Of a stretch of 46,507 nucleotides of DNA, positions 24,663-45,909 are shown in pieces. The notes beneath the pieces are model-generated. The model saw only the letters and a program-made list of their open reading frames with translations. It did no database searches and was not told the origin of the DNA. The stretch covers positions 1 through 46,507 of the forward strand of contig NZ_VILB01000033.1 of the NCBI RefSeq assembly GCF_009712035.1, in the 5' to 3' direction. The stretch's first letter is position 1; every line of letters begins with the position of its first letter. Made by a program: the position numbers and the translations under genes. Source of the stretch: Anabaena sp. UHCC 0187 (GTDB taxonomy: Bacteria > Cyanobacteriota > Cyanobacteriia > Cyanobacteriales > Nostocaceae).

Positions 24663-25649
24663 CTAAAAGTGTTTTTCTAGTAAGGAATTACACTTAACTT
24701 CACACTCTTGAAACCAGATTTCTGGATGATATTCTTGCCAAACATTTATTCTGTCTTTTCTTGGTTTTGGCATTTCACCAGAAAATTTTAATTCAAATTT
24801 TGGAATGTGGGATATGATTTTAGACAATTCCCCAACAGGGTCTTGAATCAATGCTTCATACTCAAGCACGAGATCAGCAAACTGATCGGACCATTGATGA
24901 CTCAACTGATTGAGTAGATATATCTTTTCATAGCTGTTAAGGTCATGGAGAGAAAATTGAGGAACTGACACTTCTGATAGTGCATTTAGTTCTTCATTTA
25001 ACCCTACAAAGTCAATGACTTTCTCAATTCCATCATTTAAATTGGTGCGATCGCCATTGCCAGAACGTAAGTAAAGTCCAACGAAAGAAGCATAAATATC
25101 CCTAGGATTACGTCTTAAATTCACAATTAAGGCTCCCGGAAAATTAGCTTTAATCCAAGCCAGACGAAAATCAATGCGATTAAATTGTAAAACTTTCAAT
25201 TTTTGAGGATAGGTTGAAAGTAAAAAATTGAGATAATCTTTCAACTCAGAGTGATCTTCAGTTGCAGACAAAACCATCCTTTCAATTCCAAACTTTCGCT
25301 TGAAGTATTTTGTTAAAACCTCACGCTCAAGAGATTTGTACTCATAAAAATAACCATCCTGAAGGTTATGAGACAGCCACAGTTGAGTTTTTTGATGTTC
25401 CAAATCATCTTTTTCCAACCAATCCAATACGTGATAGTTCAAAGGCTCGTAAAAAGCAATGGTATTGGCTAGGCTCGAAAACAAAGAATACAGGTAAGTT
25501 GAACCTGTTCTATAGCGAGCTGTGATGAAAATGCAATCTTTAACTATCTTTTCCCTATCTCCATCTATATTAGCTAGTGCTGGTATGTGTTTCTTTTCCT
25601 GAAGATAAGCTGACAATCCTTTGAGCTTCATTTTTGTTAAATAGACCAA
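24663..25649 (-). CDS. Sulfotransferase
   Basis: A 328-residue PAPS-dependent sulfotransferase. The phosphosulfate-binding loop is CIFITARYRTGSTYLYSLF near residues 39-57. The 3'-phosphate site is LIVNLRRNPRDIYASFVG near 174-191. It is full length for the Sulfotransfer_1/3 group and soluble. It is the last gene of the minus-strand cluster, and PAPS can be supplied by the APS kinase encoded 2 kb upstream. The probable acceptor is a hydroxyl on the cluster's product or on a glycan; the sequence does not say which. Confidence 0.8.
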   Translation of the reverse strand: MVYLTKMKLKGLSAYLQEKKHIPALANIDGDREKIVKDCIFITARYRTGSTYLYSLFSSLANTIAFYEPLNYHVLDWLEKDDLEHQKTQLWLSHNLQDGYFYEYKSLEREVLTKYFKRKFGIERMVLSATEDHSELKDYLNFLLSTYPQKLKVLQFNRIDFRLAWIKANFPGALIVNLRRNPRDIYASFVGLYLRSGNGDRTNLNDGIEKVIDFVGLNEELNALSEVSVPQFSLHDLNSYEKIYLLNQLSHQWSDQFADLVLEYEALIQDPVGELSKIISHIPKFELKFSGEMPKPRKDRINVWQEYHPEIWFQECEVKCNSLLEKHF

Positions 25650-25729
25650 ATTAATATTCTATTCAATCATACTAAATGATGATTCTGGTAAGGCAACTAT
25701 AACAGAAATACTGAATCGGTATTCTGTGT

Positions 25730-27094
25730 TCAAGGCGCGTGCTTTTCCTGGTTCCTCTTTTCTTCTAAATTAAATAAACCATACAAAGCCCAAGAATTAA
25801 CTCCCACATTGTTCTTTGCTAAAATACTTAACCAAACTTTCCAAACGAACATGGAAAAAACCGTTGCCATTGCGGAACCCAGTATTCCAAAAAACATGAT
25901 TCCAATCGGATTGAGAATTAGATTAATTAAAGCGCTAAATGCAAATACGATTGCTGACTTATTTTGATGTCCGGTCATCCCCAGTAAAAAGCTCACAGGA
26001 CCAAATAAAACATTAATCACTTCACCAATCACTAGAATTTTTAGCACCCAGTCGGCTGCGACAAACTCTGGTCCAAACATCGCTAGAATTGGCCGGGAAA
26101 AAATGATCAAGATGGCTGCAATAATTAGAGATGGCCAGAGAACCCACAAAGCTGTAGTTGATACAACCGCTTGTAGTCCCTGGTGATCACCGCGAGCGTG
26201 GAGAGTTGCAAATGCAGGTGCTGCCACAATATTGATAATTTGCAAAAAGAAGGCAACCCACACGGCAGTGTTGCTAGCTGCGGAGTAAACGCCTGCTGCT
26301 TCTGCACCAACTAACGAACCAATCATCAAAATGTCAGTACGAAACAAAATCACAATGAAAGCAGATTGAAGCAATAAAGGGAGAGCAAGGTTTAACCACT
26401 CACGATAAGCGTAGGTAGGCGTGGCAGCTTCAACAGTTTGGTTGAGCTTTCTTCTCAACAACCATAACTGCAACAAAACAACTCCCAGTAAGATCAGTGT
26501 TGACAGCAAAATTACTGGTACACTGCTCAAAGAATGGTTTTTGGTGAAAAGAAGAAAACCTCCAAGCAGAATTAAGGCAGGCGATAAAATACGTGAGGGT
26601 GCAAAGGCTAGTGTAATATCTTCCAAGGCTCTAGAAGTTTCTAACTGTAGCTGAGTTAAAGCCTGTAATAGCACCATCCACAGACCAATGAGCAGAGGAG
26701 TCGTATAGTCCGATTCGTAATACCGATTAATGATTAAAACAATCACACTTCCTAGAAGAGAAACCACGCAGCCTGATAGAAAAACCAGTAGCCAACTTCC
26801 CCGAATTATCCCCCGCAACATCCCCCAATTTTGTTGAACCTTGTATTCTGAAACCAAGCGCAAAACCGCATGAGGCAAACCTAAACCTGCAAAAATTGCT
26901 AATAAGTAGGACCAAGAGAGTGCGTAATTATAAACACCATATTCGGTTGACCCCATCCACCAGATCAGTGCAAATTGAAGCATATAGGCAAGGGCATCAC
27001 CACTCGCCTGTAAAATTAAGGCAATACCAGCATCACGAGCTAGTAAGCCAATATCGACACTATTCTCAGATTGAGAAATTGCTGTTTGAGTCAT
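25730..27094 (-). CDS. Polysaccharide-type flippase (MOP superfamily)
   Basis: A 454-residue integral membrane protein with about 12-14 hydrophobic helices. The pattern of Wzx/polysaccharide biosynthesis flippases is visible in the first helices (ALAYMLQFALIWWMGSTEYG, AGLGLPHAVLRLVSEY). A late repeat has VLKILVIGEVINVLFGPVSF. It would move a lipid-linked or amphipathic product across the cytoplasmic membrane. With the adjacent glycosyltransferase it suggests a glycoconjugate, or it may export the PKS product. A 478-bp gap separates it from the APS kinase gene. Confidence 0.8.
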   Translation of the reverse strand: MTQTAISQSENSVDIGLLARDAGIALILQASGDALAYMLQFALIWWMGSTEYGVYNYALSWSYLLAIFAGLGLPHAVLRLVSEYKVQQNWGMLRGIIRGSWLLVFLSGCVVSLLGSVIVLIINRYYESDYTTPLLIGLWMVLLQALTQLQLETSRALEDITLAFAPSRILSPALILLGGFLLFTKNHSLSSVPVILLSTLILLGVVLLQLWLLRRKLNQTVEAATPTYAYREWLNLALPLLLQSAFIVILFRTDILMIGSLVGAEAAGVYSAASNTAVWVAFFLQIINIVAAPAFATLHARGDHQGLQAVVSTTALWVLWPSLIIAAILIIFSRPILAMFGPEFVAADWVLKILVIGEVINVLFGPVSFLLGMTGHQNKSAIVFAFSALINLILNPIGIMFFGILGSAMATVFSMFVWKVWLSILAKNNVGVNSWALYGLFNLEEKRNQEKHAP

Positions 27095-27572: not shown

Positions 27573-28145
27573 CTATACACAATGAACCTGTGCGTGAGTA
27601 AGCAATCTAGCAGTATCGTTATTAACTTCAAATATTGCCTTTAAAACTTTGCTTACACTCTCATCTAGGTTCTCATGATCTGTTTTACATTCAACTTCTG
27701 GATAAGTTGGTGGTTCATAGGGATCATTAATTCCAGTGAAGTTTTTAATTTCCCCTGATCTAGCTTTTTGATATAAGCCCTTGACATCTCGTTGTTCACA
27801 AACATCTAACGGAGTATTGACATAAACCTCAATGAAATTACCAATTTTCTGCCGAACTTCATTACGGATATCTCGGTAGGGAGAAATGGCTGCAACTAAA
27901 ACAATCACACCATTGCGAGTCAATAATTGAGCAACAAAGCCTATACGACGAATATTTTCGTCTCTATCTTCCTTGCTGAAACCTAAACCCTTAGTTAAGT
28001 TCTGACGGACAATATCACCATCAAGAACTTCAACTTTATTGCCCTGTTCCCGAAGCTTTTGCTCTACATCTCTACAAATAGTAGTTTTACCAGCACCACT
28101 TAAACCAGTAAACCAAACAGTCACACCAGATTCTTGCATTTTCAT
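27573..28145 (-). CDS. cysC: APS kinase (adenylylsulfate kinase)
   Basis: A 190-residue kinase that phosphorylates adenosine 5'-phosphosulfate to PAPS, the sulfate donor of sulfotransferases. The P-loop is GLSGAGKTT at 14-22. The DGDxxR segment is VLDGDIVRQNLTKGLGFS, followed by the RxxNIRRIGFVAQLL helix, ISPYRDIRNEVR, and a lid with GINDPYEPP. All expected motifs are present and the length is normal. Placement between a glycosyltransferase and sulfotransferase genes points to dedicated PAPS supply rather than sulfur assimilation. A truncated second copy lies at 23181. Confidence 0.9.
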   Translation of the reverse strand: MKMQESGVTVWFTGLSGAGKTTICRDVEQKLREQGNKVEVLDGDIVRQNLTKGLGFSKEDRDENIRRIGFVAQLLTRNGVIVLVAAISPYRDIRNEVRQKIGNFIEVYVNTPLDVCEQRDVKGLYQKARSGEIKNFTGINDPYEPPTYPEVECKTDHENLDESVSKVLKAIFEVNNDTARLLTHAQVHCV

Positions 28146-28237: not shown

Positions 28238-29758
28238 TCACGCCATTATATCCTTTGGGCGAGGTTGATACAAAGCTAAACGCATGACATCAACTAATCT
28301 GATTGACCAGTAAATAGCAGCTACAAAGAATATGCTATGTTCTAGGACTATTCCTGTGATTAAAACTCGAACAAGTCCTAAAAGCAATAGAACTAAGAGT
28401 GCAGCATGAAATTGACAATAGTGAAGATAGGATTGATATTTAGCCGTCTTTCTGGTTACAACGTATTTGGGTTTCTTGTTCTTGCCATTCATAATAGCAA
28501 CCCCAATCATTTTAAGATTGGCAAATAGAAGAGCTAATTCCAGGGTTTTGTGTTTCCAACCAAAGATCATATTACCTTTGAGAGTAACTAACTCGAAAAG
28601 AGCTATTGCGGCGATCGCTACAAAGACAATTGGCGGTACACTCAGAAACATTGGTTTACCAATTATTAAAGAAATAGCGATCGTCACATTCAAGAGAAAT
28701 ATTGATATAGGATAGAGCAGTTCTTTTATCCCTTTTGTACAAAAAGCTAGCTGTTGCTTAAGGCTCAGTCCTGACAAATCAGCAAAAAATACTAATCGCA
28801 AAGCATCTAAAGACCAAACAGAACGTTGCTTTAAAAAGTTTTCCAGATCAGTCACAGGGGCTTGAGTGGAGACACCTACCAAATCAAGTGCTTGAGAAGT
28901 CCAACCTTTTTGGAGAATACGGACTGTAGTGGTTACATCTTCAACCATATTCCAAGCATCAAAGCCCCCTACATCCACAAGTGATTGCTGATGATAGACA
29001 GTCCCTGATCCCAGTGAAAACACGCCTCCTAACCATATTTTCCCCGGTAGAACATAAGATTGTAAAAATACCTCTCGCGTATCAAAGGGATCTGACTCGT
29101 CTACAAGCTGCGTTTCTTTATAAGTTTGTACTAAGCCTACAGTGGGGTGATTAATCAGATAGGTTGTACATTTTCTCAGAAACTGTGGATCACCTACACA
29201 ATCATCACAGTCTCGTGTTTCTATGTAATTTATACCGGGAAAAAGATTACGAAGTTCCTTCCAAGCTGCATTGAGTGCGCCAGCTTTTGCCTCACCTTCC
29301 CGATCTGAAGAATCTTTAGAAGGTGGTAGAACATGATAGCAGGAGAGTTTTGGGTAAGCAGACTGCAAAATGGTTGTAAACGTTGCAATCTCATCTCTGC
29401 GAGCATCATTAGCAATGAACAGCTTAATTTTATCTATGGGATAATCCTGCTCAACAATGCTGTCAACTGTTGCCTTTAAAAAATGAATATCTTCGTTATA
29501 AATAGGAACGATAACGGCAACTTCTGGCGTTTCTGAACTTAATTGCTCTACCTTAACCGGACTGACAGTATGAATATTTACAATGATGAAGTAAATAAAA
29601 AACACTGCACTCATTAGCACACCTAATCCGCATAGGTAGGCTAATACGAAATAGTCGAGATTGAGATGGGAAAGGAGGGATAGGGTAGCTGTAAAGATGG
29701 ACGCGATCGCCACAATGCCAGTAATTTTGAGTATAACATTATAAGCTATCTGCTGCAT
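28238..29758 (-). CDS. Membrane GT2 glycosyltransferase (cellulose synthase-like)
   Basis: A 506-residue processive-type family 2 glycosyltransferase. Two N-terminal membrane helices (residues 5-60) precede the catalytic domain with VAVIVPIYNEDIHFL, FIANDARRDE and the metal-binding ETRDCDDCVGD. An ED motif in NMVEDVTTT and QRSVW stand for the ED and QxxRW motifs (the Arg is Val here). Several C-terminal helices follow. It would add sugar from a nucleotide sugar to a membrane-bound acceptor or polymer. A good GGAG site precedes the ATG. The altered QxxRW site suggests a non-polymerising enzyme or changed specificity. Confidence 0.8.
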   Translation of the reverse strand: MQQIAYNVILKITGIVAIASIFTATLSLLSHLNLDYFVLAYLCGLGVLMSAVFFIYFIIVNIHTVSPVKVEQLSSETPEVAVIVPIYNEDIHFLKATVDSIVEQDYPIDKIKLFIANDARRDEIATFTTILQSAYPKLSCYHVLPPSKDSSDREGEAKAGALNAAWKELRNLFPGINYIETRDCDDCVGDPQFLRKCTTYLINHPTVGLVQTYKETQLVDESDPFDTREVFLQSYVLPGKIWLGGVFSLGSGTVYHQQSLVDVGGFDAWNMVEDVTTTVRILQKGWTSQALDLVGVSTQAPVTDLENFLKQRSVWSLDALRLVFFADLSGLSLKQQLAFCTKGIKELLYPISIFLLNVTIAISLIIGKPMFLSVPPIVFVAIAAIALFELVTLKGNMIFGWKHKTLELALLFANLKMIGVAIMNGKNKKPKYVVTRKTAKYQSYLHYCQFHAALLVLLLLGLVRVLITGIVLEHSIFFVAAIYWSIRLVDVMRLALYQPRPKDIMA

Positions 29759-30046: not shown

Positions 30047-30451
30047 CTACCGAGTTGCCGGCAACTCCTGAATCTGATAACTGGAACTGTTTTTATTTCC
30101 TAACTTGTGGGACTCATGACCTTGAAGTGGGGGATTAAAGACGCAAATCAGCCGCATCCGAGTCTTTGCCCGCAGATAATGCTTTTCCTGTTGGTTCAGA
30201 GCATACATAGTACCCGGCTCCATCGAGTAGACAATCCCATCAACTTCGACTTCCCCTTCACCTTCAATGCAGTAGCAAGCTTCTAGATGATTTGTGTATT
30301 CCAAAAGAGATTCCGTGCCTGCATCTATGATCGTATCTGTGAGAGAATAACCCATACCATCTCTAGCAAGCAGAAACCGGCGACTTTGCCCATTGCCCCA
30401 AGCAACATCGCGTTCAGAGTTGATAATTTCGCTTAATTTTCTGATAATCAT
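30047..30451 (-). CDS. ectC: Ectoine synthase homologue (EctC, cupin)
   Basis: A 134-residue cupin matching EctC along its whole length: LLARDGMGYSLTDTIIDAGT, NHLEACYCIEGEGEVEV, MEPGTMYALNQQEKHYLRAK and MRLICVFNPPLQGHESH. The iron ligands known from EctC structures are present as Glu57, Tyr83 and His91. EctC closes N-gamma-acetyl-2,4-diaminobutyrate to the cyclic amidine ectoine. No ectA or ectB is in this window, and the gene sits among oxidases of a PKS cluster. It may close a cyclic amidine in a secondary metabolite, or serve as an orphan ectoine synthase. An AGGAAT ribosome site is present. Confidence 0.85.
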   Translation of the reverse strand: MIIRKLSEIINSERDVAWGNGQSRRFLLARDGMGYSLTDTIIDAGTESLLEYTNHLEACYCIEGEGEVEVDGIVYSMEPGTMYALNQQEKHYLRAKTRMRLICVFNPPLQGHESHKLGNKNSSSYQIQELPATR

Positions 30452-30616: not shown

Positions 30617-31684
30617 TCAGATATATTCCGAGAGAACGTTGTGAAAATGATCAACTCCCAGTTCATGCTCCTCGGCAAGTTGTGTTACCTGATAGGCGCG
30701 TGAATGGAGTCCGGCTTGAATTTGCCGACAAATGGAAAAATCCTCTTCCATGAGGACATCAAATCCCTGACGAAACTCTTGGGAGCGATAGGGAATACCT
30801 GCAAATTGAGAAGGAGCTTGGTAAATAATGATCTCCACCCTAGTGTTACCCGCATCCAAGGGAATCAGATGAAAGACAGAGAGAAATTTTTTGTGTGGGT
30901 TCAGCATCATATTTGGGAAAATATAGCCCTGATGTGAAACCTTCCCTGCTTCTGAAAAACTGGTAAAGAATTCTCCTCCCTGATTATTCGTATAGGGAAC
31001 CTCAATTCGGAGGTGGCGACCTGTGGGGAGGCTGCGGATGTTATCACTATCGTAAACTGTCCCAAACCCCTGATTGTGGACTACCTCAAAATGGTAATCC
31101 TCAACATAATTTTCCACGATCAATTTCCAGTTAATCGGTTGATCATAGAACCAACGGTCAACTTCTCGGAGGGAATTCCAATCCTGATCATAATGTTCCA
31201 AGAAAGCAGGCATACCCGCCAAGTAATCATCGAGGGATTCTCCGTTGGCATCGGGATTGACAAAAATAAACCCACCCCAGGTTTCTACTCTTGCTCGAAC
31301 TAGGTGAATTTGGGATTTGTCTAGGTTCGGAAAAAGCTTAGGCTTGGTAATGCCTATAAGCTGACCGTCTAAGCTGTATGTCCAGGCGTGATAAGGACAG
31401 GTAATTTTGTGATGAGCACAGTTACCTTCTCCCTCTAATAACTTTGCTCCACGATGGGGACAGACATTGTGCATGGCTTGAAGAGACCCATCAGTTGCCC
31501 GGATCACAAAAATTGGCTCTTCTCCCAAGGTATAAGTCAGGTAATCACCTGGTTCGGGAATAGTTTCTTGCCGACCAATCAATTGCCAGGTACTACGCCA
31601 AACGGTTTTTAGCTCATGAGCAAAGATTTCTGAATCTGTATAATATTTTGCCGGAAGTCCCAATTGCTTGGTTTGTAGCAGCAT
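30617..31684 (-). CDS. Rieske non-heme iron oxygenase, alpha subunit
   Basis: A 355-residue ring-hydroxylating-type oxygenase. The Rieske [2Fe-2S] ligands are C75-x-H77 (VCPHRGA) and C96-x2-H99 (CPYHAWTY). The mononuclear iron site is in ENYVEDYHFEVVH with H198 and H203 and the bridging acid E195 (or D196), plus a late acidic ligand near EEDFSICR. Related enzymes hydroxylate or demethylate small molecules such as choline, betaines and aromatics. No reductase or ferredoxin partner is encoded nearby, so electrons must come from elsewhere. It lies 48 bp after the exporter gene and is probably cotranscribed. Confidence 0.85.
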   Translation of the reverse strand: MLLQTKQLGLPAKYYTDSEIFAHELKTVWRSTWQLIGRQETIPEPGDYLTYTLGEEPIFVIRATDGSLQAMHNVCPHRGAKLLEGEGNCAHHKITCPYHAWTYSLDGQLIGITKPKLFPNLDKSQIHLVRARVETWGGFIFVNPDANGESLDDYLAGMPAFLEHYDQDWNSLREVDRWFYDQPINWKLIVENYVEDYHFEVVHNQGFGTVYDSDNIRSLPTGRHLRIEVPYTNNQGGEFFTSFSEAGKVSHQGYIFPNMMLNPHKKFLSVFHLIPLDAGNTRVEIIIYQAPSQFAGIPYRSQEFRQGFDVLMEEDFSICRQIQAGLHSRAYQVTQLAEEHELGVDHFHNVLSEYI

Positions 31685-31732: not shown

Positions 31733-32731
31733 TTAAACACTCTCCTCAATTTCCTTAACCCCAGACGAGCTAGAAATACTCAGAGATAGCCCCAGTACAA
31801 CTACGCAAAAAGCAAGTAAATTAGACAAGCTTAAAGTTTCTGAGAACATTATCCCAGCGATTATGGCAGTCGTAAATGGTGTTAGTAAAAAAACCAGGGC
31901 GACAAATCCTGATGAAAGCCGCTTGAGGCTATATAACAGTAGTCCTTGAGCAAGCAAACCGGAAACTGACATACTCACAATAGCTATCCAGCCTGGTAAC
32001 GAAGTCGGCAGTAGATTTTCTTGGGTTATTACCAGAACCATTAACGTCAATGGTGTTCCACAAGCAAAGCATCCTAGCAGTACAGTATCTGTCTGTAACT
32101 GAGTTCGGAGTTGTTCTGCTCCTAGTAAATATGCTGCTAGGAAAAGTGCCGAGACAAGTGCTAGAAAATCACCTTGTAACTTATCAATACCGATTTGAAA
32201 GTCATTAAATCCGATTATCAACAATCCTGAAACGGCGATCGCACACCCTATAAGAAAACGCCTGTCAAAGCACTGTTTGAATAGTAACCATCCCCCCAGA
32301 ACTGTGAAAACAGGCGTGAGATTATTTATTAGTTCACAATTGGCTACAGTGGTTTGACTTAAAGACCAAGCTAAGGTGATCAACATTCCCGCCAAAAAAT
32401 TCCCCGTTACCAGAAATAATCCCAGTAATTGAACACGGTGATAAAGCGGCGGAGATAGGGGGGGAGATTGATTTGGACAATTAGCCAATTGACGATATAT
32501 AGCCAGTAATCCCCAAATCAAACCTAAGATGATCGTTGTTAGAAAAAAGCGGTCAAAGATTGCGGTTCCTGAACTCGTTTCCATTGCACCCCATTTGGTA
32601 AAAACAGGAACGAAGGAAAACGCGATCAGTGATCCTAGCAATGAGATAAAAGACCACAAATCTTCCGACTTGATAGGTAACTTTTCTGGTGAAGCATCGG
32701 ATAAAACAGACATTTTCGAGAAAGAACTCAC
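31733..32731 (-). CDS. EamA/DMT-family exporter
   Basis: A 332-residue membrane protein with about ten helices forming two EamA repeats. Marks include the first-repeat ending LINNLTPVFTVLGGWLLF and the second-repeat ending VFLLTPFTTAIIAGIMFSETLSL, both typical of drug/metabolite transporters. It likely exports the cluster's product or an intermediate. It starts 26 bp after the radical SAM gene, within the operon. A permease of the same family (SxtPER) accompanies saxitoxin clusters, a functional parallel and not proof of relatedness. Confidence 0.85.
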   Translation of the reverse strand: MSSFSKMSVLSDASPEKLPIKSEDLWSFISLLGSLIAFSFVPVFTKWGAMETSSGTAIFDRFFLTTIILGLIWGLLAIYRQLANCPNQSPPLSPPLYHRVQLLGLFLVTGNFLAGMLITLAWSLSQTTVANCELINNLTPVFTVLGGWLLFKQCFDRRFLIGCAIAVSGLLIIGFNDFQIGIDKLQGDFLALVSALFLAAYLLGAEQLRTQLQTDTVLLGCFACGTPLTLMVLVITQENLLPTSLPGWIAIVSMSVSGLLAQGLLLYSLKRLSSGFVALVFLLTPFTTAIIAGIMFSETLSLSNLLAFCVVVLGLSLSISSSSGVKEIEESV

Positions 32732-33883: not shown

Positions 33884-34837
33884 TCAACCAGAAACAGAAA
33901 CTTCTAGATTGGCAAAGGGGCTTTCTTTGCCGCTGTAGTCTTCTTCCGAGCTAACATACCAATCCTGTTTCTTGAAGATACCGAGTCCACCATCTCCTGT
34001 TTCTCCCTCTTCACTTGGATGGAAGTTGTGTTGTTCAAATACGGATGTGTAGCTACCATCTTTAATCACAGAATCAGGTAGTTTTTGAATGGGCTTGTAC
34101 TGATGATGCTCCTGTCCTTCAACCCAAAAGGGTGCATTAGAAACAGCATTGTAATGACAATGAACCACTGTCCGAGTTTGATCTGTGAGGTTGGGTCCAG
34201 AACAGTGCAAAGTATTACCGTGGAAAAACATCACATCGCCTGGTTCCATCTCGCAATACACGAGTTCTAGGCGCTTGAGAATTTCTTTGACACGTTTTGG
34301 ATCAGCAAATACCGCTTGATCTCCTCTGGACATATCAAAGCGACTAGCGAGATGAGACCCCTTGACCATTTGGATACAGCCGTTTTCTTTGGTATTTGCA
34401 GTAATGGCGATCGTGCAAGTTGCAAAATGGGGAAATAGACAACCATTTTGGTACCAGAAGGCGCAATCCTGATGCCAATCTACAGTCCCTTCACTGTAGG
34501 GGTCTTTTTTGAGAATCTTGGAATGCCAATGGTAGCTCTCCTCTCCCAAGAGAGCTTCTGTTCCATCTACTATGCGGGCAATTCTCGGCAAAACTCCTAG
34601 ATAGGTTTGTTCTAAATCAGTCCAAGTTGTCACCTTATAAATTTTGCCAAAGCTATCAACGATGTTGGTTTGATAGCCCATGACATTTGGGTCTTGTTCG
34701 CAAGCTTTACGCAGTGGCTCAATTTCATCTAGGTCGAAAAATCCTCGCACGATCAGAAAACCATCTTTGTGATATTGAGCAATTTGCTCCTGGGAAAGAG
34801 GTCGTACAGTATGAACTTTCGCGTCAAATGTCAACAT
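33884..34837 (-). CDS. Phytanoyl-CoA dioxygenase (PhyH)-family oxygenase
   Basis: A 317-residue Fe(II)/2-oxoglutarate enzyme. The iron triad is H122-x-D124 (VDWHQDCAFW) and H211 (FFHGNTLHCSGPN). The 2-oxoglutarate arginine is R222 (DQTRTVVHCHYN). The family hydroxylates or halogenates small molecules; the acidic residue of the facial triad is present, so hydroxylation rather than halogenation is expected. Ectoine hydroxylase EctD belongs to the same superfamily, but its signature (FxWHSDFETWH) is not matched. The gene starts a close-packed group of tailoring genes after a 253-bp gap containing a hairpin. Confidence 0.85.
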   Translation of the reverse strand: MLTFDAKVHTVRPLSQEQIAQYHKDGFLIVRGFFDLDEIEPLRKACEQDPNVMGYQTNIVDSFGKIYKVTTWTDLEQTYLGVLPRIARIVDGTEALLGEESYHWHSKILKKDPYSEGTVDWHQDCAFWYQNGCLFPHFATCTIAITANTKENGCIQMVKGSHLASRFDMSRGDQAVFADPKRVKEILKRLELVYCEMEPGDVMFFHGNTLHCSGPNLTDQTRTVVHCHYNAVSNAPFWVEGQEHHQYKPIQKLPDSVIKDGSYTSVFEQHNFHPSEEGETGDGGLGIFKKQDWYVSSEEDYSGKESPFANLEVSVSG

Positions 34838-38000: not shown

Positions 38001-41000
38001 GCGGTTAGTGGCTTGTAGTTGCAGGTTATCTGGTGTTCCTCGATTGGCGATCGCCAACCGAAAGGGCTGATTTTCAGGAATTGCCAATGCCGTTTGCCCG
38101 CCTAACGCATTGGAGCTTTGGCGGCGAACCAATCTAGCTACATAGCGGACCTGGTTACGGAAGGCAATTTGGTCTTCCATAGTATCTGCTGACAGAGGAG
38201 GGAATACTTCCGCGAACACAGCAAGAGCTGACTCAGTAGTTGTTACCCCCGGATCTAAATCGATCCGAATTACTCGCATAGCTGGATGCTCTAAGGCAAT
38301 TGTTTTACCCATCCCCCACACTAGGGAAGGTATTAACGCCTGCACCGAATGTTCTTGGATCGCCTGTCCACCTTTAGTGATTATCCACAGCGGCGGTACA
38401 GATATATTGCTTTTTGCCAAGGTTTGCACCAAGTGCAACACGCTGCCACAACTTAGCAAAGCCCTTTGCTCAAGGATCTCTGGTGTTAGGGTTTCTGGCT
38501 GTTCCCAGCCCCAAGCGTGAACGATTCCCTCAATCAACGGTAGAGATACCAACAGTTGCTGAAAATGTTCAGGGGCCGCAGGATTGAGGTGGTACTCGTG
38601 GGCGGAGATTGCTTCATAGTCCTGACCAGGCAGGACAAGAATGCAAATTTCACCCTGATCACGCAGCAGAGCAGCCAACTCCTGACCAATATGAGAACTA
38701 TCTGCAAAGATGAGCCAATGGCGAGGTTGGGAGTGATAGTTATCAATCGTTATGGACTTGTGGTTTTGCTCACGCCACTCCACTTCGTAGAGCCAATCCT
38801 GCTCAGTATTCTGGTTCTTGCCGAACATCGTTTGACGGCGAACCCGTTTCAGTTGCAGCCCATTCATCTCTGCAATGAGTTGTCCTTGAGGACTGAACAA
38901 CTTAATATCTGCATTAAGGGTTTCTGGGCGATCAGATTCACGCTTATGCAAGTTGGCATCACACCACATCTGGTTACTGGGCTGACCAAAAAACCGTAAC
39001 TCCTGGAAAAGGACAGGGACATAAGTTTCTTCCTGTTCTTCTAAAAGCGTTGCATCTAAAACTTGTAAACAGATATCTAATAATACTGGATGTAGCTGAT
39101 AATTGTCTAGGTCTAGTGCCACAGACTCCGGGAGGACGATGTGACCCAGCGCTCTGTCTTGATTCCGCCATACTTGCTTCACTGCCCGGAAACTTAAACC
39201 GTAGTCAATTTGCTGTTGTTGAAACTTGTGGTAAAGGTCAGCAACGGAAATTTCTTCTGTTATTTGCTGTTGTAGTTCCTTTAAATTCACCGTCGCTGGC
39301 GTTTCTGTCTTGGACAAATAGAGTTTGCCTGCTGCATGGAGGTTCCAAGCAGGTTGTCCTTTGTCCTCTGGTGGTGACGGATCTGGGCTGAAAATTTGGA
39401 AGGCGTAAGTTGTCGAGTCTTCTGGTTGCAACACCATCTGTAGGGGCTTGGTTTCGCCTTCCTCCGGAATAACCAGCGCCTTCTGGATGGTTACTCCTTC
39501 AAGCCGACAACTTTGACCAGATTGGGCAATCGTGGCTCCTGCCGCCAATGCCATATCCAAATAAGCAGTTCCCGGCAAAATCGTGGTTTCAAAAACACGA
39601 TGATCGCTTAACCATACCGGAAAATATTTGCTAATTTGTCCCTGGAAACGTAACTCGCGAGTTCCAGCCAAGGATAAAGGCTCACCTAGTAAAGGATGGT
39701 GCGAACCATCGAGTGTACTAGAATTGTTCAAAGGTAACGCAACAGGCGTTTGATGTGTAGCTGGAGCGTCTACCCAATACTGACGGCGTTGGAAGGGATA
39801 GGTGGGCAAGACTACCCTTTGCCGTAGGCAGTCTCGGTCAAAGCCCTCCCAATTGATTGTCACACCATGTAGGTAAAGTTCAGCTAAACTTGTGAGTAAT
39901 GTTTGCCAATCTCCTTGCTCTGGATGTAAGCTAGGTAGCCACAATCTATAATCGTCAGCAGGGAGACACTGACGACCCATACCCAGCAAAGTGGATTGAG
40001 GACCAATTTCTATAAATACTTCAACCCCCAGTTGTCCCAGCCTTTCCATGCTTTGAGCAAATCTAACAGGCTGAAGAATATGCTGACACCAATACTCTGG
40101 GGTGGTAATTGCATCTGTGATTATTTCTCCTGTAACATTGCTAATCAGGGGAATCTGCGGTGGTGAAAAGTGGACTTGTCGAGCCACCTGCTCAAATTCA
40201 GCCAGCATTGGCTCCATTAGGGGTGAGTGAAACCCATGGGAAACTCTGAGTTTCTTGGTTTTCACCCCTTGGGTTTCAAAAATAGCACAGGTGGCTTGAA
40301 TTGCTTCCTGATGCCCAGAAATAACAATACTTTGTGTTCCATTGATTGCTGCCAAAGACACCTGTTGAGCATAGGGACGAATTGCTGATAGCACTTCTTG
40401 TTCAGGAGCTAATACTGCAACCATCTCACCATTTTGGGGTAATGCTTGCATCAATCTACTTCGATGGGCAATGAGCTTTAATCCGTCCTCTAAGCTAAAA
40501 ATTCCCGCAATGCAAGCTGCCACATACTCACCAACACTGTGACCTATAACCACATCGGGTTGAATACCCCAGGATTTCCATAACTGAGCTAAAGAATATT
40601 CTAGTGCAAAGAGAGCAGGTTGTGTGTAAGCTGTACTATCTAGTTCTGAAGGACTGTCTGAATTGTCTGGATATAGTATTTCTAGTAAAGAAACCTCTAG
40701 ATATTCATTTAAAATCTGATTGCAGCGATCCAGATTTTCTCGAAAAGTCGGCTCACTCTCGTAGAGTTGACGACCCATACTAATGTACTGTGAGCCTTGC
40801 CCAGTGAAGAGAAAGCCAATTTTCTTGGTAGTCACAGCTTTGAGTACATGAGCTTTGGGGCGCGTTAATTTCTGCTTTTTATACTCGTTTTGAATAAATA
40901 CCTGCAATTGCGATCGCACATTCGCTTTAGAGTCAGCAACTATAGCCAATCGGTGATGAAAGTGTTTACGTCCTGTATTAGCAGTGAAGCAAATATTCCC

Positions 41001-42554
41001 TATATCCACATCGAGATTGGTATCTAGATAATCCACATACCTTTGGACTAACTCTTTTAGTGCTGTCTCTGTTTTGGCGGATAATGTTAATAAATGTAAT
41101 TTTCGTTCTAGTGAGTGCGAACTGCTTGCAGTAGTGCTAGTTCCCTCCGGGACGCTCCGCGAACGTAATCGCGCTCTTGTCTGAGGAGATTCTTCTAAAA
41201 CTATGTGGCAATTCGTACCACCCATGCCAAAGGAACTGACCCCTGCACGACGAGGCATTTCGCCGCGCTTCCATTCTGCTAAATCGGTATTTACATAAAA
41301 GGGTGTATTCGCAAAGTCAATATTGGGATTCGGTCGGCTAAAGTTTAAGCTAGGGGGAATAGCATGATGTTTGAGCGATAACACCGTCTTAATCAGTCCT
41401 GCAATCCCTGATGCGTCATCTAAATGTCCAATATTGGTTTTAACTGAACCGATGGCACAGAATCCATTTTTGTCTGTGTTCTCCTCTGTACTTTGGCGAA
41501 ATGCTTGGGTAAGAGCGGTTATTTCAATGGGATCGCCCAGAGCAGTTCCGGTTCCGTGGGCTTCTACATAGCTGACTGTACTGGCATCAACTCCCGATAC
41601 CGCCAAGGCTTCCGAAATTGCCGCAACCTGTCCGTGAATGCTCGGAGATGTGTAGCTCATTTTGTGCGCCCCATCGTTATTCACTGCTGATCCTTTGATG
41701 ACAGCATGGATGGTATCGCCTTCTGCAAGAGCTTTACTCAGTAATTTGAGAACAACAACACCGGCACCATTCCCAAAAACAGTTCCTTGAGCATCAGCAT
41801 CAAACGCTCGACAATGTCCATCTGGCGACAAAATCATGCCTTCTCGATAAAGATAGCCAATGCGATGGGGAACAAATATGGAAATACCTCCAGCTAATGC
41901 CACATCACATTCACCGAAATGCAAACTTTGACAGGCTAAATGCACCGCAACCAAGGAAGTAGAACAGGTGGTTTGCACATTTACACTCGGACCTGTTAAA
42001 CCCAATTTATAGGAAACCCTCATGGGTAAATGATCTGAGCCATTACCCTGTTCTATATGTAAATCGCTGGCGGCTCTAAACAGGCGATGGCTGAGAAATG
42101 GTCGCTGGGGTGAAAACCCCCGACTTGGACAAACATTATTGATTAAATAGGTACTCAGACTTGACCCTGCATAAACCCCTACTGACTCTTTGCGAATTTC
42201 TGGGTTATAGCCAGCACTCTCCAGAGCTTCCCAGGCACATTCCAAGAAAATTCGCTGCTGGGGGTCCATAATCTCGGCTTCTTTGGCACTGTAGCTGAAG
42301 AAGTCGGCATCAAACAGGTCAATATTGGCTAGTACAGCCCCCGCTTTGACGTAATTTGGATGACTCAGCAGGCTGGGATCAAAGAAGTCAAGCTCTTGAT
42401 CAGAAAAAAAGGAAATTGATTCTACCCCATTAGACAGATTTTTCCAAAACTCATCAATATTCTCTGCGCCTGGAAAGCGGCATGACATTCCCACAATGGC
42501 AATATCTGATTCGTTAAACTGCTGTTGTGAATCGTTATTTGGTAGAAGACTCAT
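35091..42554 (-). CDS. Type I polyketide synthase, one module: KS-AT-DH-ER-KR-ACP-TE
   Basis: A 2487-residue synthase. KS: residues about 13-445, nucleophile Cys in TTCSTSLVAVHLAC near 196, plus EAHGTGT and NIGHLD. AT: about 575-900, GHSVGEY with Ser near 671 and HGFHSP, fitting malonyl-CoA. DH: about 955-1240, His near 983 in LSDHRVFE, where the motif's Gly is Glu (HxxxE); the second motif HPVLLDICLQ is intact. A structural KR half follows, then ER (about 1500-1820, HAAAGGVGQAA), KR (GGFGGLG near 1833, Tyr near 1968), ACP (GLDSL, Ser near 2130) and TE (GHSFGG, Ser near 2288; final His near 2459). It adds one C2 unit, probably fully reduced if DH works, and releases the chain. No methyltransferase is seen. 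The KS-AT linker includes a translated dispersed repeat. Confidence 0.9.
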   Translation of the reverse strand: MSLLPNNDSQQQFNESDIAIVGMSCRFPGAENIDEFWKNLSNGVESISFFSDQELDFFDPSLLSHPNYVKAGAVLANIDLFDADFFSYSAKEAEIMDPQQRIFLECAWEALESAGYNPEIRKESVGVYAGSSLSTYLINNVCPSRGFSPQRPFLSHRLFRAASDLHIEQGNGSDHLPMRVSYKLGLTGPSVNVQTTCSTSLVAVHLACQSLHFGECDVALAGGISIFVPHRIGYLYREGMILSPDGHCRAFDADAQGTVFGNGAGVVVLKLLSKALAEGDTIHAVIKGSAVNNDGAHKMSYTSPSIHGQVAAISEALAVSGVDASTVSYVEAHGTGTALGDPIEITALTQAFRQSTEENTDKNGFCAIGSVKTNIGHLDDASGIAGLIKTVLSLKHHAIPPSLNFSRPNPNIDFANTPFYVNTDLAEWKRGEMPRRAGVSSFGMGGTNCHIVLEESPQTRARLRSRSVPEGTSTTASSSHSLERKLHLLTLSAKTETALKELVQRYVDYLDTNLDVDIGNICFTANTGRKHFHHRLAIVADSKANVRSQLQVFIQNEYKKQKLTRPKAHVLKAVTTKKIGFLFTGQGSQYISMGRQLYESEPTFRENLDRCNQILNEYLEVSLLEILYPDNSDSPSELDSTAYTQPALFALEYSLAQLWKSWGIQPDVVIGHSVGEYVAACIAGIFSLEDGLKLIAHRSRLMQALPQNGEMVAVLAPEQEVLSAIRPYAQQVSLAAINGTQSIVISGHQEAIQATCAIFETQGVKTKKLRVSHGFHSPLMEPMLAEFEQVARQVHFSPPQIPLISNVTGEIITDAITTPEYWCQHILQPVRFAQSMERLGQLGVEVFIEIGPQSTLLGMGRQCLPADDYRLWLPSLHPEQGDWQTLLTSLAELYLHGVTINWEGFDRDCLRQRVVLPTYPFQRRQYWVDAPATHQTPVALPLNNSSTLDGSHHPLLGEPLSLAGTRELRFQGQISKYFPVWLSDHRVFETTILPGTAYLDMALAAGATIAQSGQSCRLEGVTIQKALVIPEEGETKPLQMVLQPEDSTTYAFQIFSPDPSPPEDKGQPAWNLHAAGKLYLSKTETPATVNLKELQQQITEEISVADLYHKFQQQQIDYGLSFRAVKQVWRNQDRALGHIVLPESVALDLDNYQLHPVLLDICLQVLDATLLEEQEETYVPVLFQELRFFGQPSNQMWCDANLHKRESDRPETLNADIKLFSPQGQLIAEMNGLQLKRVRRQTMFGKNQNTEQDWLYEVEWREQNHKSITIDNYHSQPRHWLIFADSSHIGQELAALLRDQGEICILVLPGQDYEAISAHEYHLNPAAPEHFQQLLVSLPLIEGIVHAWGWEQPETLTPEILEQRALLSCGSVLHLVQTLAKSNISVPPLWIITKGGQAIQEHSVQALIPSLVWGMGKTIALEHPAMRVIRIDLDPGVTTTESALAVFAEVFPPLSADTMEDQIAFRNQVRYVARLVRRQSSNALGGQTALAIPENQPFRLAIANRGTPDNLQLQATNRQQIADGEVEIRVYSAGLNFIDVLNVLGLYPGEPPLGIECAGEIVAIGAGVIGLEIGDAVIAIASGGFSQYVTVDANLVVLKPTTLTFEEAATIPESFLTAYWSLHHLAKIAPGDRVLIHAAAGGVGQAAVQLALLAGAEVFATASPSKWAVLEAMGVKVVMNSRTLDFAQEIIALTQGQGVDIILNSLTGEGFIASSLSVLAENGRFLELAKRDIWSPEQMTHLRPDVSYFKIDTTKACQEEAPAIQLMLRHLVQQFENHDLKPLAKTVFPIQSAVTAFRYMQQAKHIGKIVLTLPASALVQGDGSYLITGGFGGLGLLVARWLVEQGARYLILMGRSDIPAAIAPQISEMEQAGATVITIQADVSNLLEATAVFSHLTKTAPPLRGIIHAAGVLDDGVLQQQTWQRFIQVMAPKVQGAWNLHTLTKNQPLDFFVLFSSSASLLGTAGQANYGAANAFLDALASYRRRQGLSGLSINWGPWAEVGMTAKLQLGDRLRQKGEDSIPPQQGLQILGKLLHQSPVQVGVMPMNWERFLERQQRLTPFFSELYDPLAQRVGQLSAIEFRKHLETLPLEECKAALKTHVCTQAAKILGIGTPQQVPTDQRLVDLGLDSLMAIEFLSLVQSSMGTSLSSVLLFNYPTVDALVDYLCQQFVAPEDADSLPISLGKGSHGALQVTNNGVNTQHHSTIIAIQPQGTKIPLFCVAGILGSVFDFYGLARHIGADQPFYGLRSLGLMVGEQALTPMADIAAYHIKAIQEIQPQGPYQLAGHSFGGKVAFEIAQQLSHQGQEVSLLAIMDIPAVLAGSDRVIATWDDVQYITKLAEIYGGASGKQLETSPEILSKLDTEAQLKLLLEQVQTTGQKLTLPELQQIFSVYRANMIADTAYVPQPTDIPITLFRGKEMGQLDFLPDAATTQTDPTWGWHQVSTQPIQLHLVPGNHFTMVKEPYVQVLAQKLKTILALKVADGKV
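41141..41172 (-). repeat. Dispersed palindromic-type repeat in frame in the PKS gene
   Basis: The sequence ttccctccgggacgctccgc followed by gaacgtaatcgc is a frequent intergenic repeat type in Nostoc-like genomes. Here it encodes RLRSRSVPEGT in the linker between KS and AT, followed by a Ser/Thr-rich stretch. The frame is kept, so the synthase should be functional. Confidence 0.55.
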
Positions 42555-42887: not shown

Positions 42888-42909
42888 TTAACTCTGGTGC
42901 AGAGAAAAT

Positions 42910-43869
42910 TTAAATTGAGTTGTTTGGGGCAATAGTGTTACTGGTCTGAAAGGGAGAAACAATTTGCCCGACAACTGATTGGGGAATTTGTTCAGACTTA
43001 TTCAAGCCAAACTGCCAATCACAAGAACTCCCACGGGGCATTTCAAAGGTTCCAAACAGGACATCCCAGATGGGAAAAACATCTGCGAGGTTGGCATCAT
43101 AGCGGCAATGAACTGTGTGGTGCCAAGCGTGAAAGTTGGGAGTAGCAATCAGGTAAGCCCACCAAGGAAAGGTCTTTTTCGTATTGGGAAAGTCCACATT
43201 TAAATGCGGGAGAATACCTCCAAAAACCATACGAATGCTCAGACCAATCACTAACGCCTCATTGGTAACACCCAGAAGATAGGCCAGCCCAATATCTGAG
43301 GTGAGGTGACCTAGATTAAAAACAGGATGGTCACGGCTGCCAGTAATACAGTTGAGTTCAGTCACGCCATGATGTATTTTGTGAAACCGCCAAAAAAACG
43401 CGGAAGAATGATCTAATCTGTGAAAACAATACCGTTTGAAATCTTCTAATATTAAGTAAATAACAATTTGTAACGTCAAAGGTGTAGATAAGGCAACTAA
43501 TCCCCAATGACCTGTTCCTGACGGAAACTCTTTGAGCAATACACCAAACAGAAATGCCTGAAGGGAGATCGTGATCATCCCGGAAAACGCATTAATACCC
43601 AAAGTTATGAGTGTCTCCTTCGATGTCCAATGATTCGATTGTCGGAACCATAGAGATTCTAAAAAAATGCCAATCACCAAAATTCCTACACGCGTCCAGT
43701 CATGTAAAATTATTGCTGTAACCAATAAAATCAGTAATCCTGCGGTACTTAGCCAAAGAATAGCTTCCTGCCATTTGTGGGAAGTCCATTCAGCTACAAG
43801 ACATATCCCCAAAAGAATACACAGCAATAGTAGATTAATCAGTGTTTCACCCATTAAAGTAGTCACCAT
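42910..43869 (-). CDS. Fatty acid hydroxylase/sterol desaturase-family membrane oxygenase
   Basis: A 319-residue membrane di-iron enzyme. Four to six hydrophobic helices precede and separate the histidine clusters HRLDH (RYCFHRLDH), HKIHH (FHKIHHG) and HAWHHTVH, the metal-binding pattern of this superfamily. These enzymes hydroxylate or desaturate CH bonds in lipids and some small molecules. It starts 12 bp after the adenylation-PCP gene, so the two are surely cotranscribed. It could act on the loaded or released amino acid/polyketide. Saxitoxin clusters contain a protein of the same superfamily (SxtD). Confidence 0.85.
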   Translation of the reverse strand: MVTTLMGETLINLLLLCILLGICLVAEWTSHKWQEAILWLSTAGLLILLVTAIILHDWTRVGILVIGIFLESLWFRQSNHWTSKETLITLGINAFSGMITISLQAFLFGVLLKEFPSGTGHWGLVALSTPLTLQIVIYLILEDFKRYCFHRLDHSSAFFWRFHKIHHGVTELNCITGSRDHPVFNLGHLTSDIGLAYLLGVTNEALVIGLSIRMVFGGILPHLNVDFPNTKKTFPWWAYLIATPNFHAWHHTVHCRYDANLADVFPIWDVLFGTFEMPRGSSCDWQFGLNKSEQIPQSVVGQIVSPFQTSNTIAPNNSI

Positions 43870-43881
43870 AGATCGCGTTTC

Positions 43882-45909
43882 CTATCTTTGACGAGCACGA
43901 TGTGCTTGTCGGAGTTTCTTTTGTTGTTGAGCTACCGTAAAGCAGCGGTTACCAGAAAGTAAGTTCTGATTTGTAGCTTTAGGTTTTGATGTGTTCTGAC
44001 TTAACTGTTGGGCTAGTGTTTGGATTGTTGGATATTCAAATAAAGTTGTAATTGTTGTCAGGCGATCGCCAAAAATATTTGTAAGTTTTTCATAGACTTG
44101 CAGCAGTAACAAAGAAGTGCCGCCCACCTCAAAAAAATTGTGATTGACGCTCACCTCATCTAACTGTAGGATATACTGCCAAACCTCAGTAATCTTTTTT
44201 TCTGTTTCAGTTTGAGGGAGAACTAGTTCAGTTGTCAATACCGACAGCGATCGTTTAGGAACAGGTAAACTTCGTCGATCTAACTTACCACTGGGTGTCA
44301 GGGGCATTTGATCAAGTAACACTAGAGCCGCAGGTATCATGTAGTCAGGCAGACAATCGCGTAAATAACTGTGGACAATCACTTCCAAATCATGAGTAAT
44401 CGTATCCTGGGATGATACTATATAGGCTACTAACCGCTTGTTACCCAGAACATCCTCTCGCAAAATGACAGCACTCTCTTGCACCATTGAATGCTTGGCT
44501 AACAGCCCTTCAATCTCACCTAGTTCAATTCGGAATCCTCGCACTTTCACCTGACTATCACTACGTCCTAAGTGCTGAAGGTTACCATCTGGCAAACAGC
44601 GAGCTAAATCTCCTGTTTTATAAAGAAGACCAGAACCGAAAGGATTGGTAATAAATCGCTCTTTGGTGAGTTCTGGACGATTAAGATAGCCTCTAGAAAT
44701 TCCCTTTCCACCGATGTACAACTCGCCTGCAACCCCAGGAGAAAGAAGTTGGTGCAACTCATCTAAGATATAAATCTCAGTGTTATGGATAGGACGACCA
44801 ATAGGGGGAAGGAGATCCCAATCGTTCACGTCTGATGACAATGTAAAGCTTGTGACATCTTGACATTCAGTAGCTCCATAATGGTTGTGCAGTCTACAAC
44901 CAGTTTGCTGGAAGAATTGAGCAATATTTGGCAGAATTTGCAATTGTTCTCCTGCTGTCATAATTTCTCGCAGCTTTGTTTGCAACGGTCTACGGATAGC
45001 CACTTGAGCTAACTGCTGAAGTGCTGCAAAGGGCAAATATAGCTTTTCAATCCCTTGTTCCCAAATGATATTTAAGAGAGCTTCAGGATTACGTCGTTGT
45101 TCGTCAGATATCAAGACTAACGTGCCACCTGAACACCAAGTGGAAAAAATCTCATGAAAGGAGATGTCAAAACTAAGAGGAGCAAATTGCAGGGTCTTTG
45201 CACCAGTGATGCGATGATGGATATGCCAGTCAATGAGATTAAGAAGTGCCAAATGCTCCATCATCACCCCTTTGGGCTTTCCGGTGGAACCGGAGGTGTA
45301 AAGAACATAGGCTAAGTTGTGGTGCTTAACCAAACTGACTGGATTATGATTCGATACTTGTGAGATGGTCTCCCATTCTCTATCCAGATCAACAATGGAA
45401 TATCCCTCCGCAATATGGGAAATTACTGAGGAAGTTTCTAACAACCTTGTCGTAGTCAGTAGCAAGTAAACTTGGGCATCTGCCAGCATATAGGCAAGAC
45501 GTTCACTCGGATAAGACGGATCGAGAGGCACATAAGCTCCCCCGGCTTTGAGAACAGCCAACAGTGCTACAAGCATTACTAAGGATCGCTCAATACAAAT
45601 CCCCACTAATGTCTCTGGTTCAACTCCTAATGCTTGTAGGTGATGAGCTAGTTGATTCGCTCGTTGATTCAATTGCTGATAAGTCAGTTGTTCATTACCA
45701 AACACGACCGCGATATGATCTGGCGTTTGTTGAGTTTGTTCCTCAAACCATTCATGAATACATTGATAGTCTGTTACAGTATTATTCCAGCCTACCAAAA
45801 TCTGTAGCTGCTCTTTGGTTGTAGCAGTTATCACATGACGCAATGGATATTGTGATTCATCCTGGCTCTCACATAGTTCAACTCGAAAGCTATTTTCCAT
45901 ACTCTTCAT
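43882..45909 (-). CDS. NRPS loading protein: adenylation domain plus peptidyl carrier protein
   Basis: A 675-residue A-PCP didomain without condensation domain. A motifs: LAYVLYTSGSTGKPKG (A3), FAPLSFDISFHEIF (A4), HNHYGATE (A5), GELYIGGKGISRGYLNRP, YKTGDLAR (A7), VKVRGFRIELGEIE (A8) and PSGKLDRR (A10). The PCP has FFEVGGTSLLLLQ near residues 605-617 with the phosphopantetheine Ser. The basic C-terminal tail may dock to the PKS. Aligning by eye to the GrsA pocket gives D-I-H-Y-M-A-H-D-V-K, in the general style of proline-type domains (D-V-Q-F-I-A-H-V-V-K) but with an extra Asp. It activates an amino acid that I cannot name. It is the first gene of the cluster. Confidence 0.85.
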   Translation of the reverse strand: MKSMENSFRVELCESQDESQYPLRHVITATTKEQLQILVGWNNTVTDYQCIHEWFEEQTQQTPDHIAVVFGNEQLTYQQLNQRANQLAHHLQALGVEPETLVGICIERSLVMLVALLAVLKAGGAYVPLDPSYPSERLAYMLADAQVYLLLTTTRLLETSSVISHIAEGYSIVDLDREWETISQVSNHNPVSLVKHHNLAYVLYTSGSTGKPKGVMMEHLALLNLIDWHIHHRITGAKTLQFAPLSFDISFHEIFSTWCSGGTLVLISDEQRRNPEALLNIIWEQGIEKLYLPFAALQQLAQVAIRRPLQTKLREIMTAGEQLQILPNIAQFFQQTGCRLHNHYGATECQDVTSFTLSSDVNDWDLLPPIGRPIHNTEIYILDELHQLLSPGVAGELYIGGKGISRGYLNRPELTKERFITNPFGSGLLYKTGDLARCLPDGNLQHLGRSDSQVKVRGFRIELGEIEGLLAKHSMVQESAVILREDVLGNKRLVAYIVSSQDTITHDLEVIVHSYLRDCLPDYMIPAALVLLDQMPLTPSGKLDRRSLPVPKRSLSVLTTELVLPQTETEKKITEVWQYILQLDEVSVNHNFFEVGGTSLLLLQVYEKLTNIFGDRLTTITTLFEYPTIQTLAQQLSQNTSKPKATNQNLLSGNRCFTVAQQQKKLRQAHRARQR

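Follow-up and report, generated by a model that had tools for sequence, protein, structure and literature searches.

An orphan EctC homologue and an altered proline-type adenylation code in an NRPS-PKS cluster of Anabaena sp. UHCC 0187

The stretch of DNA analysed here (the window) is one whole contig, C26, of 46,507 bases, from the 57-contig, 5.1 Mb assembly of Anabaena sp. UHCC 0187 (genome G000), and from base 45909 down to 24663 it carries on the minus strand a nonribosomal peptide synthetase (NRPS)-polyketide synthase (PKS) cluster with a probably new starter unit. The first-pass annotation had counted thirteen minus-strand loci in this part; the list of open reading frames (ORFs) and the identification of their families give twelve genes. 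What we rank most important is an orphan-type homologue of ectoine synthase (EctC) together with a matching switch in the code of the adenylation (A) domain. Drawing on the observed gene content, conserved gene order, motifs, EctC subtype, and A-domain code with its correlation to EctC, we propose a single pathway in which EctC-made 5-amino-3,4-dihydro-2H-pyrrole-2-carboxylate (ADPC) would be loaded by the A domain, extended by the PKS, oxidised, and perhaps decorated, a reading to which we give a probability of roughly 0.48.

The substrates, the products, and the order of the steps are in every case predictions from sequence. The orphan EctC would cyclise glutamine to ADPC, a cyclic-amidine analogue of proline, and the A domain, whose proline-type pocket has a new aspartate at position 330 (Asp330) that would face the amidinium, would activate ADPC and load it onto its own peptidyl carrier protein (PCP). 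The PKS module would attach one malonyl-derived C2 unit and then reduce it, and the thioesterase (TE) would release the product as 3-(aminopyrrolinyl)propanoic acid or as a fused pyrrolizidine-type lactam. Oxidation by the membrane hydroxylase, the PhyH enzyme, and the Rieske enzyme, plus the radical SAM enzyme where present, decoration by a GT2 glycosyltransferase and a sulfotransferase dependent on 3'-phosphoadenosine 5'-phosphosulfate (PAPS), and export by the EamA and flippase proteins would complete the route. That the A domain takes the EctC product seems likely; that this product is ADPC is, in our estimate, an even chance. Anthelvencin would be a precedent for an ADPC unit; its name was absent from the 15 entries listed, of 491, in the search made. 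The genes concerned, and two plus-strand features beyond the sulfotransferase gene, are:

43882 to 45909, minus strand: A-PCP loading protein (AMP-binding and PP-binding), code DIHYMAHDV, proline type with Asp330 (domain matches, alignment)
42910 to 43869, minus strand: membrane FA_hydroxylase of the histidine-box kind, weakly OlsE-like (domain and motif)
35091 to 42554, minus strand: type I PKS, KS-AT-DH-ER-KR-ACP-TE, one module with its own thioesterase (domains, motifs)
33884 to 34837, minus strand: PhyH Fe(II)/2-oxoglutarate oxygenase (domain, solved-structure matches)
32758 to 33846, minus strand: radical SAM/SPASM enzyme (domain matches)
31733 to 32731, minus strand: EamA/DMT-family transporter (domain matches)
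30617 to 31684, minus strand: Rieske oxygenase alpha subunit (Rieske and Ring_hydroxyl_A), best solved match carnitine monooxygenase
30047 to 30451, minus strand: orphan-type EctC, Ectoine_synth (family match, residue alignment)
28238 to 29758, minus strand: membrane GT2 glycosyltransferase, CelA-like (family match, kept in carriers)
27573 to 28145, minus strand: adenosine 5'-phosphosulfate (APS) kinase, PAPS supply (family match)
25730 to 27094, minus strand: Wzx/MatE-type flippase, Polysacc_synt/MatE (family match)
24663 to 25649, minus strand: Sulfotransfer_3-family sulfotransferase, other carriers having a different gene (family match)
23538 to 24131, plus strand: Sulfotransfer_4-family ORF of uncertain membership (family match)
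22647 to 23275, plus strand: remnant of a second GT2-APS kinase region (sequence comparison)

ORF and family identification recovered every component that the first-pass annotation had named, i.e., the A-PCP protein, the single PKS module with its own TE, the four oxidative or radical enzymes, the EctC homologue, the glycosyltransferase, the APS kinase, the sulfotransferase, and the two export-type membrane proteins. A and carrier domains and a type I PKS lie together in one conserved block, as in a hybrid NRPS-PKS system, and a domain search found no condensation domain in the A-PCP protein. The catalytic motifs sought in the PKS and the iron enzymes are present (in Planktothricoides the KS and KR motifs, which escaped the search patterns and were read by eye, are TTCATS and TGGCSGLG). 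We take the AT motif HGFH/HAFH to be malonyl-type and the KR motif LDD to be B-type; the DH motif carries E or D at the consensus G position, so that full reduction is probable rather than certain. The best solved match of the PhyH enzyme is a leucine hydroxylase, with ectoine hydroxylase also among the matches. The radical SAM enzyme has one weak solved-structure match (E 0.0048) and is matched in 21 of 60 genomes at E ≤ 0.001, the window's own included (best other 1e-19, 27% identity), and in 7 Brachyspira plasmid records at 23-24%. SxtT and SxtDIOX of saxitoxin synthesis also belong to the Rieske oxygenase family of cyanobacterial tailoring enzymes; a saxitoxin-like pathway was set aside because their match to the window protein is weak and limited to the Rieske part (E 7e-07 and 9e-07, vs 2e-47 for carnitine monooxygenase).

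Genome contigs were scanned for EctC, and the best 80 of 341 confirmed relatives were kept. Among these loci, a run of cluster genes was found outside the window only in UHCC 0259 (L025), a member of the window's genus that is named Dolichospermum sp., and in Planktothricoides sp. SR001 (L026), where 9 and 7 of the 12 cluster queries, respectively, were matched at E ≤ 1e-20 in the stretch examined; the remaining loci with three matches had EctC and distant KS and ligase matches only. In further stretches of both genomes, the A-PCP and hydroxylase genes lie upstream of the PKS gene. Of 388 genomes of the order, five match the hydroxylase at E ≤ 1e-60 (G000, G012, G013, G702, and G715); G702 and G013 share the same places as G061 (SR001) and G060 (UHCC 0259), and G013 was equated with UHCC 0259 on its agreement with G060 in contig number and coordinates. 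At the cluster, G715 and SR001 agree at 99.95% over 30.5 kb and are not independent, which leaves four distinct carriers. The first nine genes, from A-PCP to GT2, keep the same order and orientation in Planktothricoides at 70-87% identity, and they recur at 92-100% identity, minus the radical SAM gene, in UHCC 0259 and in G012, a third genome of the genus. The ratio of nonsynonymous to synonymous substitution rates (dN/dS) between the window and Planktothricoides is 0.06-0.20 for the nine genes, as expected under purifying selection, with dS at 0.9-1.25 and near saturation; against G012 it ranges from 0.03 to 1.35 on few changes and is uninformative. The gene-order comparison with cyanobacterial genomes that had been suggested earlier thus came out in favour of linkage, and the earlier claim of one pathway stands for the genes from A-PCP to GT2, which very probably act together, and is weaker for the APS kinase, flippase, and sulfotransferase. 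The set had also been called undescribed, and the literature searched held no account of it, a provisional result given that subscription papers largely and MIBiG lay outside the scope; the SR001 genome paper, in the passages concerned, names 2-methylisoborneol (2-MIB) and a cyanobactin cluster (PMC5460452).

The window EctC belongs, over the cut-off, to the same Pfam and NCBIfam family as canonical EctC of P. lautus (PlEctC; PDB 5onn and 5ono) and keeps the iron ligands E57, Y84, and H92 as well as R25, T40, Y52, C104, and F106. It differs in having Trp at position 18 and Gly at 21, Thr38 for Asn, and Glu51 for Trp, i.e., the canonical substrate residues Trp21 and Asn38 are absent. In an alignment of 85 EctC proteins with PlEctC numbering (82 loci, L023-L104, plus L002, the window, and PlEctC), 72 carry the orphan signature (Trp18, no Trp21) and 13 are canonical, with E57/Y84/H92 kept in 85/85. 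At residue 38 the orphan proteins divide into T38 (51 plus the window), C38 (13), A38 (5), L38 (1), and N38 (1, Mycetohabitans). The window gene thus lies outside an ect operon and encodes a protein with the shifted Trp and intact iron ligands, all marks of orphan EctC. In the description of such proteins in PMC6344544 the key Trp is shifted by two residues in some cases, vs three by the numbering of our alignment. The passages on orphan EctC in PMC6344544 and PMC5924519 describe its function as unclear, and the same two sources report that H. elongata EctC cyclises glutamine to ADPC in a side reaction. EctC is also mentioned beside nonribosomal terms in PMC8776678 and PMC8719888.

EctC above the family cut-off is rare, being found in 3 of 386 sampled cyanobacterial genomes. 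That the window enzyme forms a six-membered ring like that of ectoine, starting from N-acyl-diaminobutyrate that is imported or made in some other way, and that the A domain loads this ring, is quite improbable in our judgement: ectoine is the known EctC product and the PhyH enzyme is weakly similar to ectoine hydroxylase, but PlEctC residues Trp21, Asn38, and Trp51 are replaced, the A domain belongs to the proline type with its five-membered ring, and no EctA over the cut-off was found in five genomes searched, three of them carriers (two weak sub-cut-off matches; EctB was not searched). An ectoine/hydroxyectoine pathway was set aside on the same absence of EctA in the carriers searched and the changed pocket. 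Two other orphan EctC genes were noted. One, in the window's genome (G000:C4:310129-311648; L118 10129-11648), overlaps an EamA gene, and the pair is flanked by an rsgA-like gene and a gene of glycoside hydrolase family 57, so the EctC-EamA pairing recurs outside the cluster. The other, on a Gloeothece verrucosa plasmid (L023 18799-25110), lies between a fatty acid desaturase gene and genes for a GNAT protein, a tryptophan halogenase, and HpaB.

The A-domain code was read at what we take to be the specificity positions of the GrsA scheme, 330 included. In trees the window A domain falls in the prolyl group of cyanobacterial NRPS A domains and has a similar pocket, yet its code is not that of proline: vs DVQFIAHVV it has I236, H239, Y278, M299, and Asp330, and unlike those domains it is part of a stand-alone A-PCP protein beside a PKS. 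Multiple alignment gives DIHYMAHDV in the window, UHCC 0259, G012, and SR001, and the same motifs are present in G715. In a search of the phylum (65 of 386 genomes matched at E ≤ 1e-130, three candidates per genome scored, 30 loci read), both genomes with DIHYMAHDV have EctC in the cluster; among the 28 non-cluster domains that served as controls, Asp330 occurs in 0/28 by multiple alignment, and 16 begin with DVQF, presumably the proline code. An Asp330 seen in L152 by pairwise alignment was rejected, the multiple alignment giving V330/D331.

A close parallel was found on the megaplasmid of Mycetohabitans endofungorum, where the gene for an EctC with the orphan signature, although with Asn38, immediately precedes that for a large NRPS; the code of the first A domain in this NRPS is DIHYIAHDV (L123 8009-18378, L051). 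The passages on endopyrroles that were consulted name no product for it. A search of 150 genomes of that family gave one further strong match (G637, 51%), in a region (L208) with neither Asp330 nor EctC. A masked tree of 40 NRPS domains joins the window group to the Mycetohabitans domain, though support for this is low (66/50); a separate origin of the two, suggested by FastTree, is not claimed, as this more careful tree pairs them weakly.

The same residue recurs in a second setting. The window excluded, there are 51 T38 loci. In 34 of them the stretch examined includes an adenylation domain, in each case a stand-alone ligase of code DL[LF][HQ]...D[TS] (one with N), with Asp330 in 33 and Asn330 in 1; among the other 17 are L025 and L026, in which the A domain falls beyond the stretch. 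A RedW-like dehydrogenase accompanies 34/34 of these ligases, and both TrpD- and TrpC-like genes 31/34. The A38 (5) and L38 (1) loci have no adenylation domain in reach, and adenylation enzymes near C38-type EctC genes (L083, L091, L092, L093, L095, and L101) have the codes DYYH.S.R[VI] and DVQFYAQVI.

Regions were also picked by the RedW-like dehydrogenase instead of by EctC (19 in Streptomyces, from the best matches, plus one G637 region). An adenylation domain is present in 16 of the 19, with Asp330 in 6/6 of those that have EctC and in 1/10 of those that do not; the ten comprise seven prolyl-type domains without Asp330 (six V, one A), two with other codes, and one with Asp330 (L206). At the seven non-Asp prolyl-type loci, EctC and the Trp pair are each found in 0/7. 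The genomes of five Val330 loci (G485, G447, G443, G446, and G524) have one EctC each, far from the ligase. G496 contains both a Val330 and an Asp330 locus and has two EctC genes, one of them at the Asp330 locus. Counting both selections, the stand-alone Asp/Asn330 loci number 41, with the dehydrogenase in 41/41 (7 picked by it), EctC in 40/41, and the TrpD- plus TrpC-like pair in 34/41.

These 41 Actinomycetota/Pseudomonadota loci (L024 among them; also L122 2955-12089), with EctC in 40, an Asp/Asn330 prolyl-type ligase, and a RedW/PigA-like dehydrogenase, resemble a pathway in which an aminopyrrole gains a second ring. TrpD- and TrpC-like enzymes act on an aromatic amine in tryptophan synthesis, and an amino group on the loaded ring, as would come from ADPC after oxidation, would therefore fit. 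Stand-alone prolyl ligase systems with a RedW/PigA-like dehydrogenase have proline-type activation in common with the window, and their EctC-linked versions share its Asp330 switch; the window has no such dehydrogenase among its identified genes and continues to a type I PKS. In a masked-code tree of 41 domains, a single clade for the 16 Asp/Asn330 rows was rejected (approximately unbiased test, p-AU 6.75e-06; fewest changes 2), the tested group being defined by the trait itself, against which the test's own note warns; this supports at least two origins of Asp/Asn330. We tentatively extend the proposal, at slightly lower odds than for the window pathway, to a large orphan-EctC subgroup in Cyanobacteria, Pseudomonadota, and Actinomycetota, whose members would be dedicated synthases of an amidine-containing proline analogue; at least two proline-activating lineages would have gained Asp330 to load the product, and the window type would extend this monomer through a reducing PKS to an oxidised, glycosylated, and sulfated alkaloid-like compound.

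Several points weigh against ADPC loading and its extension to other loci. A-domain codes predict substrates imperfectly, and EctC could act late in the pathway: the A domain would then load proline or a simple derivative, EctC would close an amidine or other ring on the released product, and Asp330 would reflect something else. The A domain does lie inside the prolyl group, and the EctC gene is the eighth of the nine core genes and does not adjoin the A-PCP gene. We nevertheless consider a late EctC unlikely, given its position directly upstream of the NRPS in Mycetohabitans and given that stand-alone ligases, a separate lineage, show the same Asp330 switch beside EctC, a pattern not expected if EctC acted late. 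The A domains of the window and Mycetohabitans may descend from a common ancestor and may then reflect one event within NRPSs, and their EctC partners differ at residue 38. The chromosomal EctC-EamA pair (L118) has no A domain in the 20 kb searched, so orphan EctC is not tied to NRPSs; C38-type loci, with an adenylation domain in 8/13, have Asp330 in 0/8 and likely use different chemistry. The 34 ligase loci belong to one related family and so do not count as independent; they were drawn from the best 80 of 341 EctC relatives. Three regions around the best dehydrogenase matches (L190-L192) have no adenylation domain and so give no control. L206 combines an Asp330 ligase with the dehydrogenase and TrpD/TrpC-like genes, and within 16 kb EctC is absent apart from fragmentary matches; the one EctC of its genome, G474, lies elsewhere and matches the family strongly, as does the single distant EctC in each of the Val330 genomes. 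Finally, the ADPC reaction as reported in the relevant part of PMC5924519 has very low catalytic efficiency and an equilibrium largely toward glutamine.

Loading of the EctC product remains our preferred account of the core, and the extent of the pathway downstream of GT2 is a separate matter. The APS kinase and flippase genes are present in all three carriers of the window's genus, and the window's sulfotransferase survives only as a fragment in UHCC 0259 and G012. Downstream of EctC, UHCC 0259 has GT2, APS kinase, a different sulfotransferase, and the flippase; the G012 version of this other sulfotransferase is a 152-amino-acid ORF without the N-terminal half of the domain. SR001 has in that place a different sulfotransferase, GT2, an ORF of 283 amino acids without a Pfam match, a GT4-type glycosyltransferase, and an ABC exporter. 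Since the sulfation and export genes differ between carriers, their membership is weaker. It is a real though lesser possibility that two systems adjoin here, with the APS kinase, flippase, and sulfotransferase forming a sulfated-glycan module of their own that leaves the product of the NRPS-PKS core untouched: identity between the window and UHCC 0259 or G012 is 97-100% in the core vs 86-93% in GT2, APS kinase, and flippase, the sulfotransferase gene varies and is short in G012, and a remnant of a second GT2-APS kinase region lies nearby (22647 to 23275; 94.8% identical to its counterpart in UHCC 0259 and, over parts, 85-87% to the window's own copy). Such a division is opposed by the GT2 gene, which follows EctC in all five carrier assemblies examined, two of them nearly identical, and by the sulfotransferase ORF and exporter found downstream in each. 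On balance, sulfation rather probably belongs to the pathway. Nearby, an ORF at 24160-24504 without a Pfam match resembles by eye the start of an FkbM-type methyltransferase and is probably truncated.

An identical in-frame junction in UHCC 0259 and G012 removes window bases 32772-33815 (1044 bases) and leaves 14 radical SAM codons; the gene is present in the window and in Planktothricoides, so the loss is derived, and these two relatives offer a natural comparison for the role of the enzyme.

The cluster is probably carried on a plasmid. The part of the plasmid backbone at 12665 to 22216 (mixed strands), recognised by domain matches and by comparison with the complete circular plasmid pUHCC0315b, includes:

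12665 to 14794, plus strand: Mob_Pre/DUF3991
17730 to 18749, minus strand: integrase
19050 to 20153, minus strand: HTH/M78
21365 to 22216, minus strand: ParA-like

DUF3854 is likewise among the families of the plasmid part, beside ParA, Mob_Pre, and integrase, and an ORF at 16449-16808 within the backbone has a Tox-PL-2 papain fold. pUHCC0315b covers 52% of query 1-24000 at 94% identity, its matches to window bases 1804-22300 falling in 13 pieces; query 24000-46507 matched 5 records of the same collection, in pieces of about 200 bases or less, and the membrane hydroxylase gave nothing among plasmids at 1e-40. The ParA end of the backbone is kept in UHCC 0259 (98.5% over 1,075 bases). No terminal overlap was found between the ends of contig C26. 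In the window and UHCC 0259 the contig with the cluster also bears ParA; in G012 the cluster is part of a contig of 5.8 Mb, and in G715 of one of 7.2 Mb. The G012 cluster has a DDE transposase ORF between the PKS and PhyH genes, with a second copy of this ORF upstream of the A-PCP gene, and a further DDE transposase ORF ahead of the flippase gene. The suggestion that the cluster is plasmid-borne and possibly transferable agrees with this occurrence on different replicons, with the ParA-bearing contigs, and with the transposases. Plasmid-borne biosynthetic clusters as such are not new in cyanobacteria, as stated in the part of PMC8600333 that deals with them. At the contig end (46036-46507) there is a DDE transposase fragment, and a plasmid transposase of Nostoc sp. 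UHCC 0870 matches bases ~46302-46507 at 94%.

The cluster in the window is compact and mobile, its host genus is one of freshwater cyanobacteria, and some of its natural variants do without the radical SAM step. The role of orphan EctC becomes directly testable with one small enzyme, one amino acid, and one A domain, in a system that has a matched control (the proline domain) and a swappable residue (Asp330). If the proposal is true, an amidine building block would be added to the assembly-line code, and genome miners could spot such clusters by sequence.

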